This document shows, one piece after another, positions 37,722 to 39,935 of a stretch of 64,000 nucleotides of DNA; position 1 is the stretch's first letter; each line of letters begins with the position of its first letter. Source of the DNA: Pseudomonas sp. B21-040 (GTDB taxonomy: Bacteria > Pseudomonadota > Gammaproteobacteria > Pseudomonadales > Pseudomonadaceae); the NCBI RefSeq assembly GCF_024748695.1, contig NZ_CP087176.1:5883501-5947500 (forward strand). Reading direction: 5' to 3'. The notes under the pieces were generated by a model. The model worked only from the letters and a program-made list of their open reading frames with translations. It had not been told where the DNA came from and made no database searches. The translations under genes and the position numbers were made by a program.

Positions 37722-38513
37722 TTAATAGTTGAAAGTCTTGACCAGCAGCAGGTCACCGATGGCCCGCAGGGGCACGATGAAGGTCTCGCGTTTTTCGTCG
37801 ACGGTGTTTTCGTTGAGCACCAGGTTGATCTGCGAGGTAATCACCTCGTTCTGGTTGCTGGTCTCATCGAAGTTATAGCCGCCGTTGCCGAAGTTGCCCC
37901 AATAGTTCACGTAAACCAGATAGGTGCCACGCAGCGGCGCGGTCATGGTGAACATTTCCGGACCGGGGCCGTCGACACCGTCCGGGTCCAGGCCGCCGCC
38001 ATTGGTCAATGCCGGATGAGCCCAGAACGCATGCTGACCGTCGGGGGTGACAATGTGCAGGTCGAGTTCGGCTTTCGGATCATCCCAACCCAACACCACA
38101 CGAATCCGTGCCGGGGTGCGCAGGTTGTTGGCTTCATAGAATTGAACGCGCTTGAGCGACTGACCTTCGGCACTGCGCACTTCGACGCTGTTGGAACCGG
38201 CGCCGAACGCATACGGCCGGGCAAACCGCCCCTGCTCGTCGGTGTACAGATTCAAAGGATTGCCATTGACCGCCAACGTGTGCGGCCCGCGCTGAGTGCC
38301 CAAGGCCTTGAGCTGGCCTTCGATCATCGTGCGATTGCGCTGCACCCCTCGGTCGATGGGTGGCGTGGGGTAGGCGACTTGAGGATTTTCGCTGCGGTCG
38401 AGCAGGCCGTTGAAGCGCCAGCCACCGACCGGCTCCGACAGCACGGCCGCAGGCTCGGCCAAGGCCGCGCTCGCGCAGACCAGCCCTATCAGCAGCAAAA
38501 GAAGTGAACGCAT
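37722..38513 (-). CDS. MagA-like secreted DUF2135 protein, first gene of the A2M operon
   Basis: 263 residues, signal peptide MRSLLLLLIGLVCASAALA. DUF2135 core: RIRVVLGWDDPKAELDLHIVTPDGQHAFW and YLVYVNYWGNFGNGGYNFDE, ending ETFIVPLRAIGDLLLVKTFNY. AGGAGG lies eight bases before ATG 38513, which decides the start over an ATG at 38534. It is a paralogue of the operon's last gene. The operon promoter should lie in the 273-base gap shared with the divergent Fic gene. Confidence 0.83.
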   Translation of the reverse strand: MRSLLLLLIGLVCASAALAEPAAVLSEPVGGWRFNGLLDRSENPQVAYPTPPIDRGVQRNRTMIEGQLKALGTQRGPHTLAVNGNPLNLYTDEQGRFARPYAFGAGSNSVEVRSAEGQSLKRVQFYEANNLRTPARIRVVLGWDDPKAELDLHIVTPDGQHAFWAHPALTNGGGLDPDGVDGPGPEMFTMTAPLRGTYLVYVNYWGNFGNGGYNFDETSNQNEVITSQINLVLNENTVDEKRETFIVPLRAIGDLLLVKTFNY

Positions 38514-38705
38514 GTGACGCCTCCTGCCATGCATAACGAAACCTTGCGCCCGATCCTCGGCGCGTTACAGATCCAAATACTGCGTTTCGTCAAAAAGACC
38601 CGTGACTATTGGGTCGTAGTTGGCGCGAAGGTTAGCGATTCGGCAGTTTTTTAACAATCAGATACATCTTGATTTGTTGTAGCCATCACGAAGAAGTTTG
38701 GGGCG

Positions 38706-38734
38706 TGAGCCGAATAGCGATCTTATTCGGCTCA
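38706..38734 (+). promoter_or_regulatory. Palindrome 1 upstream of the Fic gene
   Basis: TGAGCCGAATA-N7-TATTCGGCTCA, a perfect 11-base inverted repeat, spacer GCGATCT. The second identical palindrome starts 34 bases later. The site is A/T-richer than its surroundings and non-coding; a repressor operator is the simplest reading. Confidence 0.85.
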
Positions 38735-38739
38735 CAACA

Positions 38740-38768
38740 TGAGCCGAATAAGACTATTATTCGGCTCA
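38740..38768 (+). promoter_or_regulatory. Palindrome 2 upstream of the Fic gene
   Basis: TGAGCCGAATA-N7-TATTCGGCTCA again, spacer AGACTAT, ending eight bases before the GGAG ribosome site of the Fic gene. In RNA the arms would form a stable hairpin next to the ribosome site, so control could be at DNA or RNA level. Confidence 0.85.
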
Positions 38769-38786
38769 TTCACTCTGGAGTTACCC

Positions 38787-39935
38787 GTGGTCATGGCACC
38801 TCACTGGATTTGGCAACAGCCCGAATGGCCGAATTTCACTTGGCAATCCGAACGCCTGACGCCGCTATTGCGTGAGTGCGTGCAGGCGCAAGGTCAGTTG
38901 ATGGGCATGGCCAGTTCCGTAGATAGCTCACTCAGCGCACAGAACGAACTGGATGCGCTGTTACAAAACATCGTGACGTCTTCAGCCATTGAGGGCGAAC
39001 AGCTCAATGTGGGCTCGGTCCGCTCATCGCTGGCGCGGCGCCTGGGTCTGGAGGTGGTCAATGGCGATAAAGTCAGCCAACGCAGCGAAGGGCTGGCGCA
39101 GTTAATGCTCGATGCCACTCAGCACTTTGCGCAACCGCTGACACTGCCGCGGTTACTGGAATGGCATACATGGCTGTTTCCGGATCAGGACATGAACTTC
39201 GCCGCCCGGGCGATCCGAATCGGCGAACTGCGCGGCGATGAACCGATGCAGGTGGTGTCCGGGCGACTGGACAAACCGACCATTCACTTCGAAGCACCGC
39301 CACGGCCTGGGCTTGAACAGCAGCTCGATACGTTTCTTGCCTGGTTTGAAGCCAGCCAGAAGCAGAACGGGCTCGATCCATTGCTGCGGGCCGGCATCGC
39401 GCACTTCTGGTTCGTCACCTTGCACCCCTTTGACGATGGCAATGGTCGCCTCACGCGAACCATTACCGATCTCGCCCTGGCTCAGGGAGAGGCGCAGGCG
39501 ATCCGGTTCTACGCCATGTCGGCGAGCATCCTGGAGGACCGCTCCAGCTATTACCGAGTGCTGGAAACCAGCCAGAAAAGCTCCACGGACATTACCGAGT
39601 GGCTGCAATGGTTTCTGCAAACACTGCTGCGCAGCTTGCAGCAGGCCATGACGCGAATCGAAGCGGTACTGGGCAAGGCGCGCTTCTGGCAGGCGCATCG
39701 GGACTCAAAATTGTCAGCCGAGCAGATTAAGGTACTGAATCGCTTGCTGGACGGTGGTGAGCGAGGCTTCGAGGACGGGATCAGTGCGGCTCAATATCAA
39801 GCTGTGGCGAAAGTATCGAAAGCCACCGCGACCCGTCATTTGGCTGAGTTGCTGGAGAAGGGTTGCCTGCAACGCCTGCCCGGCGGTGGGCGTAGTACCC
39901 GCTATCAAGTCCACTATCCGGATGACTCAACATAA
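38787..39935 (+). CDS. Fic-domain AMPylase-type protein with DUF4172 and C-terminal HTH
   Basis: 382 residues. Start region DUF4172 (HWIWQQPEWPNFTWQSE), then the inhibitory-helix motif SSAIEGE (class II, within the same chain), the Fic core with HPFDDGNGRLTR (about residues 210-221), and a C-terminal winged HTH (ISAAQYQAVAKVSKATATRHLAELLEKGC with the wing GGGRSTRYQV). Fic enzymes usually transfer AMP to protein hydroxyls; the target is unknown. The HTH suggests it also binds DNA, probably the twin palindromes just upstream. GGAG is six bases before GTG 38787; ATG 38793 is the alternative. An in-frame ATG at 38739 inside palindrome 2 seems too early. Confidence 0.9.
   Translation: MVMAPHWIWQQPEWPNFTWQSERLTPLLRECVQAQGQLMGMASSVDSSLSAQNELDALLQNIVTSSAIEGEQLNVGSVRSSLARRLGLEVVNGDKVSQRSEGLAQLMLDATQHFAQPLTLPRLLEWHTWLFPDQDMNFAARAIRIGELRGDEPMQVVSGRLDKPTIHFEAPPRPGLEQQLDTFLAWFEASQKQNGLDPLLRAGIAHFWFVTLHPFDDGNGRLTRTITDLALAQGEAQAIRFYAMSASILEDRSSYYRVLETSQKSSTDITEWLQWFLQTLLRSLQQAMTRIEAVLGKARFWQAHRDSKLSAEQIKVLNRLLDGGERGFEDGISAAQYQAVAKVSKATATRHLAELLEKGCLQRLPGGGRSTRYQVHYPDDST

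Follow-up and report, generated by a model that had tools for sequence, protein, structure and literature searches.

Autoregulated operators of toxin-antitoxin systems consist of tandem palindromes that precede a toxin-like gene and that are bound by its own product. The locus described in this study differs from such systems in that the enzyme and the likely DNA reader are combined in one protein, a Fic protein with a C-terminal winged helix-turn-helix domain (wHTH), which is encoded in a 64,000-nucleotide stretch of DNA from Pseudomonas sp. B21-040 whose full length is referred to as the window. A described counterpart is CccR from Yersinia pseudotuberculosis (Nat Commun 2022), a Fic protein with a C-terminal HTH, whose dimer was reported to bind inverted repeats near the -35 and -10 elements of its own promoter and to repress itself, as shown by footprinting, EMSA, ITC and reporters, and for which export by a T6SS and FtsZ as target were described (PMC9755527). 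Whereas the operator of CccR is given as one pair, AGATAATCAT-N26-ATGATAATCT (PMC9755527), the window contains two 11-7-11 palindromes in tandem whose half-site is a different one, and neither the letters nor the N26 spacing of the CccR operator are matched (TGAGCCGAATA-N7 arms versus AGATAATCAT-N26). As judged from sequence, both would have in common that the promoter region of the gene contains inverted repeats tied to its HTH. Since the operators differ, we consider the gene in the window to work like CccR but not to be CccR. The earlier note on this DNA had known of no described system with this operator; its principle has a precedent, with another operator, in the published account of CccR (PMC9755527). 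In a literature search with the operator letters, none of the matches listed deals with this operator by its title.

The best solved relative of the Fic protein is CbFic2 (PDB 8cil, E 4.9e-101), with which it shares the DUF4172 domain with a class II inhibitory motif, the HPFDDGNGR core and the C-terminal wHTH. CbFic2 was described to dimerize via a DUF4172 helix and to change its activity upon DNA binding, which its authors propose to favour a deAMPylating dimer; in their assays the protein bound random DNA, with the specific site left open, and histone targets in host cells were reported (PMC10628234). The family-wide code described below suggests that CbFic2-like proteins may recognize specific DNA sites. 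A further resemblance concerns Sofic or SoFic, anti-phage Fic proteins for which the accessible part of the account describes no operator (PMC12249575). The PADLOC SoFic profile covers most of the protein in the window (E 2.4e-41), and its score of 62.5 in the SoFic equivalog of NCBIfam lies far below the cut-off of 550.

The domain organization is reflected in Pfam scores of 109.4 bits for DUF4172 (cut-off 25) and 46.9 bits for the Fic domain (cut-off 24). The HTH match in Pfam (DIP2311-like_C) by itself stays below its cut-off with 22.3 versus 27, and the winged HTH is instead defined by the alignment of residues 5-377 with 8cil, whose authors assign a C-terminal wHTH to this structure (PMC10628234). 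DUF4172, an inhibitory helix (TSSAIEGE), an intact HPFxxGNGR core and a winged HTH, as the earlier note had listed them, are thus all found in the protein (Table 1). Its start is likely the GTG at 38787 or else the ATG at 38793; a longer start proposed by the ORF tool (ATG 38739) overlaps the edge of the second palindrome and is unlikely. The nearest Fic loci belong to named Pseudomonas species and share 94% identity. Outside the window, the same genome encodes a second, distant Fic (G000:C1:1190157-1190960, about 24% identity), and the short stretch that was read ahead of the match is free of such repeats.

Upstream of the gene, TGAGCCGAATA-N7-TATTCGGCTCA is present twice (38706-38734 and 38740-38768), in each case with perfect 11-bp arms and a 7-nt spacer, whose letters differ between the two copies. 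With a linker of 5 nt, the period amounts to 34 bp and the centres of successive half-sites are 18, 16 and 18 bp apart. Eight bases separate the end of the second palindrome (38768) from the GGAG at 38777-38780. The window thus confirms what the earlier note had described as two identical palindromes with perfect arms, different spacers and a 34-base period that end eight bases before the Fic ribosome site. When the window was shuffled 100 times with its dinucleotides preserved, no palindrome match with up to 3 mismatches was obtained, and at the same tolerance the own genome, a single contig of 6,753,303 bases, holds no match beyond these two sites. With two sites in 6.75 Mb and 0-2 exact sites per genome in 298 genomes, the copy number is too low for a REP-like or mobile repeat, and this assignment was rejected. 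A terminator was rejected as well, the single match of a scan of 38500-38900 being the repeat itself (0.4 expected). The weak match to a sigma-70 promoter sits within the operator, with about 0.5 such matches expected in shuffles.

Table 1. Features of the Fic gene and of its upstream region in the window.
Feature	Position	Strand	Basis or remark
Half-site 1, left arm of palindrome 1, TGAGCCGAATA	38706..38716	+	1.88 of 2 bits, 76 aligned loci
Spacer of palindrome 1, 7 nt, variable	38717..38723	.	0.72 bits versus 1.84-1.97 in arms
Half-site 2, right arm of palindrome 1	38724..38734	-	sequence and alignment
Weak sigma-70-like promoter, CTCACA-N18-TATTAT	38731..38760	+	consensus match only, 9/12
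Linker between palindromes, 5 nt, sets 34-bp period	38735..38739	.	locus comparison
Half-site 3, left arm of palindrome 2	38740..38750	+	last half-site present in 17 Fic-less loci
Spacer of palindrome 2, 7 nt	38751..38757	.	locus alignment
Half-site 4, right arm of palindrome 2	38758..38768	-	sequence and alignment
Shine-Dalgarno-like GGAG	38777..38780	+	by eye
Fic gene, 382 aa, DUF4172 - Fic - winged HTH	38787..39935	+	GTG start, predicted
DUF4172 domain	38805..39050	+	Pfam; contains inhibitory motif TSSAIEGE
Inhibitory motif TSSAIEGE (class II, pattern [ST]xxxE[GN])	38976-38999	+	intact
Fic catalytic motif HPFDDGNGR (pattern HPFxxGNGR)	39423..39449	+	intact
Recognition-helix residues SKATATR, tracking half-site positions 3-6	39816..39836	+	protein/operator comparison
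Wing residues GGGRSTRY, paired with inner half-site GAWTA	39882..39905	+	by eye, few contrasts

The conservation of this arrangement was investigated in 80 Fic loci of named genomes, which represent the 80 best out of 431 relatives and in which palindromes were counted at up to 5 mismatches each. Both palindromes, with starts 34 bp apart, are found in all 79 loci with enough upstream sequence, and their spacers measure 7 nt except in L027, L049 and L056. A family search, for which 30 loci were fetched including that of the window itself, revealed two palindromes in each of the other 29, with a period of 34 in 28 cases and of 35 in L127. In an alignment of 76 loci, which excludes L018 (without upstream sequence) and the three loci with deviating spacers, the information content reaches 1.84-1.97 of 2 bits in the arms, compared to 0.72-0.77 in the spacers, 0.98 in the linker and 0.43 and 0.32 in the flanks, and exact core half-sites account for 292 of 304. 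Where the arms deviate from the palindrome, the pairing is lost in 63 cases, kept with a change on one side in 9 and restored by compensation in 2, and position 9 of the half-site is either A or T with its pairing partner not following. Because changes in the arms mostly break the pairing, we regard the unit as a DNA half-site rather than an RNA stem, and the comparison of loci shows that these half-sites are under selection. The argument that conserved arms with free spacers reflect recognition by protein or RNA is thus retained for protein, in light of half-sites that follow the HTH, and is contradicted for RNA by the broken pairing. In L336, with a Fic of 34% identity, the half-site is kept and the period is 44 bp, corresponding to one more helical turn.

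Several loci depart from this arrangement. L335 contains a double palindrome with a 44-bp period, and the 3 kb fetched for this locus include no Fic. The Fic genes of L343, L344 and L345 carry large internal deletions behind intact double operators, and two of them retain just about the last 33 codons. In L084 and L085, a complete Fic gene is accompanied at a distance of about 2.3 kb, with two other genes in between, by a palindrome that precedes a short Fic-like start.

The identity of the likely reader emerges from more diverged relatives. At the level of orders, the half-sites conform by eye to a frame TG-NNNN-GAWTA, with NNNN being AGCC, ATNN, CRGW, GCGT or others. The variable letters are paired with distinct recognition helices: KATATR with TGAGCCGAWTA (in proteins of 34-94% identity), KPTA with TGATNNGAWTA, S.DTA.R with TGCNGNGAWTA (NNNN = CRGW) and PNRTASR with TGGCGTGAWTA, while GERK-type and EGVGRG-type wings are paired with half-sites ending in ...AAA. 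These classes were drawn by eye prior to an automatic count, in which 62 loci yielded 50 classifiable proteins (34-73% identity), besides eight unclassified and four that were too short. At least one exact half-site of their own class is located within about 190 bp upstream in 45 of the 50, and at least two in 41, compared to a mean of 21.2 and a maximum of 33 in 2000 shuffles of the class labels; a single site of another class is additionally found in 6 of the 50 upstream regions. The five proteins without an exact own-class site include L352, L358 and L359, which have a different wing and by eye TGAGCCGYAAA sites, and L148 and L365, where own-class sites are degenerate. The survey of upstream regions that the earlier note had suggested thus revealed the repeats in all close relatives (79/79 and 29/29), none of which is an HTH-bearing relative without repeats of the kind that this note had regarded as evidence against its reading. 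In the diverged set, an exact own-class site is lacking upstream of these five proteins, and no repeat of the TG-NNNN-GAWTA type is apparent by eye in L368.

The 50 relatives are not independent draws, and contrasts within one genome therefore carry more weight. The two Fics of genome G444 have two operators (TGAGCCGAATA at L168 versus TGAGYTATAAA at L353), those of genome G563 (L149 versus L352) have operators that differ at the inner end of the half-site, and in genus g44 operators of the ATNN as well as of the AGCC type are found, accompanied in each case by the corresponding helix (L154, L156 and L354 versus L355-L357). Across the sequences compared, the class of an operator goes with the Fic that it precedes rather than with the host. 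Operators and recognition helices co-vary between distantly related bacteria, which points to the Fic protein as the likely binder, and the proposal that its own winged HTH would act as reader is well supported by this co-variation and by the contrasts within genomes. The code allows the likely operator to be read from the protein sequence and it names the residues that track its letters.

A prediction rule with its criterion, two own-class half-sites within 250 bp, was fixed before held-out loci were fetched. These comprised 15 plasmid loci, picked from the 60 listed of 430 records, and two from Pantoea, which had been fetched earlier with their sites unread before the rule was fixed, adding up to 17. 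The written rule assigned a class to 11 of them, of which 7 have two own-class sites, 10 have one or more exact sites of the class that was predicted and none has a site of another class. With inclusion of L651 from Vibrio scophthalmi, where the helix is one residue off the KPTA rule and three sites of that class are present, these numbers change to 8, 11 and 0 of 12. Three loci (L649, L650 and L655) have one exact site each, the Persicobacter locus L663 is a complete miss, and in Hymenobacter, a member of the Bacteroidota, TGCGGCGAATA is present as predicted. In the five held-out loci left unclassified, inspection by eye revealed TGAGTTATAGA-like repeats in L658 and L659, TGATTGATAGA-like repeats in L661 and L662 and no clear repeat in L660.

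In light of these properties, the four half-sites very probably constitute a DNA operator that is read by the C-terminal wHTH of the adjacent Fic protein, which would thereby lower its own synthesis. Binding and control of its own gene by the Fic-HTH protein is the simplest reading and is well supported by the comparisons. One dimer would probably be bound on each palindrome, whose half-site centres are 18 bp apart, and the period of 34 bp, or 44 bp in L336, would suit dimers located along one face of the helix. The two dimers would reside side by side over 63 bp and cover the region just 5' of the ribosome site, and for this reason the bound protein would be expected to lower its own synthesis. 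Repression rather than activation appears likely since the weak promoter match is contained within the operator, and autorepression would have CccR as its one proven precedent. A link between DNA binding and AMPylation is also conceivable. What is new here is a variant of the CccR principle with a different operator and a family-wide recognition code. Fic-HTH proteins are widespread, and these AMPylators gain a candidate control circuit. Evidence against a self-operator comes from the five of 50 proteins and the one held-out miss, from solo sites and from the binding of random DNA described for CbFic2 (PMC10628234).

Such solo sites were encountered in a survey of 298 Pseudomonas genomes, in which the presence of Fic was defined by a family match at E 1e-40. 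Fic is found in 137 and the exact palindrome in 147 of these genomes, with 100 containing both, 47 the palindrome alone, 37 Fic alone and 114 neither. An N13 core pattern is matched in 45 of the 47 palindrome-only genomes, and in 80 genomes taken of the 114 with neither, a site with up to 3 mismatches is present in 28, 15 of which have a site that differs at the tolerated position 9 only (counted by eye). Of the 30 solo loci that were read, each from one of the 47 genomes, 24 adjoin xseB: 17 of them with three half-sites, four with all four and three without the third at the expected place, including L099, where a further, degenerate palindrome is located on the opposite side. The search had imposed the first two arms but not the third half-site, which is perfect in 21 of the 24 loci, absent in 3 and partly decayed in none. 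In the 17 loci with three half-sites, spacers and linkers differ at 0.41 per site compared to 0.09 in xseB. Fic-less loci of the form A-N7-A'-N5-A with diverged flanks and spacers are L095, L104, L105, L109, L110, L312-L317, L319, L320, L324 and L329-L331, flanked by genes that we take to be yfaP-like and xseB-like.

A Fic-like stretch adjoins only 1 of the 30 solo loci. Given this rarity and a third half-site that is never partly decayed, relics of a lost Fic, of which L343, L344 and L345 and the remnant beside L084 and L085 are real examples, were rejected as the sole reason for solo sites; recent and repeated loss of Fic is possible. A search for relatives of the HTH in 17 Fic-less genomes gave an E-value of 0.0265 at best, and the HTH matches L600, L608 and L611 contain no KATATR at residue level. 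The solo palindromes of L321, L327 and L337 are located upstream of a gene that presumably encodes a NERD-like protein, in relatives without a close Fic. In one Fic-less genome (G176:C1:4608309-4608521) the double operator is repeated 150 bp on, with core changes in each copy.

Equivalent sites are found in viral contigs. IMG/VR contains 110 stretches with the TGAGCCGA palindrome of the AGCC class (half-site TGAGCCGAWTA), compared to 2 for a reversed-arm control, and at least 120 with TGCGGWGAWTA-N7-TAWTCWCCGCA of another Fic class, compared to 0 for a scrambled control, counts that include near-identical contigs and thus do not represent independent events. The class TGGCGTGAWTA, which was expected to be rare, gave 0 matches, and viral sites are therefore known for two classes only. 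Fic stands alongside 3 of 80 fetched loci per class (L201-L280 and L412-L491), leaving 77 of 80 in both without it in the fetched stretch, and the contigs of the TGAGCCGA-bearing loci L201-L280 range from 28 to 66% in G+C. No Fic or clear wHTH relative was found among neighbours in the fetched loci beyond those bearing Fic, and no Fic-like stretch beside the solo loci (0/77 and 0/77). Viral operator sites avoid genes: fractions of 15/77 and 32/80 are located inside an ORF of at least 100 codons, where 0.78 and 0.80 are expected. A further half-site with at least 8 of 11 letters is present in the same 34-bp register in 13 of 77 loci, whereas no other offset gives more than 3 in 154 orientations. 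Between full arms N7 is common and N8 occurs; the core-arm pattern, which with 16 fixed bases is looser than the full pattern of 18, was found with N14-N18 in 67 stretches, 39 of them with N14. A class mutated at one position gave 23 stretches, which may reflect decay or chance.

The dispersed sites bear on the question of who reads the operator. They could belong to another host regulator, with Fic being one gene of a small regulon and the solo sites its other members, and this would account for exact palindromes in 47 of 298 Pseudomonas genomes that lack this Fic at E 1e-40, for a third half-site at the 24 xseB loci that is either perfect (21) or absent (3) without partial decay, and for the 77 of 80 fetched viral loci without Fic. 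We nevertheless consider it quite unlikely, in view of the genomes and the genus with more than one Fic, where the operators differ and each matches the helix or wing of the Fic it belongs to, and of the absence of any further site within 3 mismatches in the own genome. For the solo sites, a non-Fic binder unrelated to this HTH is still conceivable.

That the arms would instead form alternative hairpins in the fic leader, as part of an attenuator or stability element, is highly improbable: the + strand folds with -49.2 kcal/mol (z -6.4), as is expected of any perfect repeat pair, but departures in 76 loci break the pairing 63 times and compensate twice, position 9 alternates between A and T with an unchanged partner, Rfam offers no family, with one match at chance level (E 0.19), and it is the arm sequence itself and not mere complementarity that is kept and that follows the HTH. 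We also see very little chance for a recombination or attachment site that moves a fic cassette, despite the resemblance of the 11-7-11 arrangement to the core of tyrosine recombinase sites. Fic-plus and Fic-less alleles do exist at one locus, between what are presumably yfaP-like and xseB-like genes, where 17 Fic-less alleles end after half-site 3, and fic with its operator also occurs with other neighbours, the fetched flanks of 24 of 29 family loci being without the reference neighbours; however, no matching site was seen by eye after the gene in the window, the half-sites change along with the HTH of Fic, and the spacers within a locus are not identical, as would be required if crossover took place between them.

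With recognition by the adjacent Fic protein as the preferred reading, the palindromes that persist without this Fic illustrate that binding by a neighbouring Fic is not their only use. The earlier note had assumed a self-contained circuit, a view that fails since the palindromes also occur without Fic, both in 47 of the 298 Pseudomonas genomes and in phages. It had also named palindromes scattered without Fic genes as evidence against its proposal: these are found in the same 47 genomes and in 77/80 and 77/80 viral loci, but not elsewhere in the own genome. We tentatively suggest, as the less probable outcome, that the operator might be a shared address, where solo copies in phages and Fic-less bacteria would be selected because a Fic-HTH protein acts in trans, as captured control sites or DNA antidotes. 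The acting protein could in this case originate from the host, from a neighbour or from another replicon, and as an antidote the solo site would hold an AMPylating toxin in a DNA-bound, harmless form. Provided that the solo sites have a function, mere DNA sites may play a role in conflicts that involve phages, bacteria and a toxin-like enzyme, of which the titles and passages retrieved in a literature search contain no account. The dispersal of the operator is possibly more important than the self-operator itself.

One group of viral sites precedes a holin, assigned by DNA likeness to annotated phages, across from a gene that we take to resemble a Q antiterminator. Four named lambdoid phages that match the holin region (L664-L667) do not contain such a palindrome, and the site is thus accessory in phages. 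In L277 and L257, the phage palindrome is located in the region before the holin near genes that are presumably HicA-like and PemK-like.
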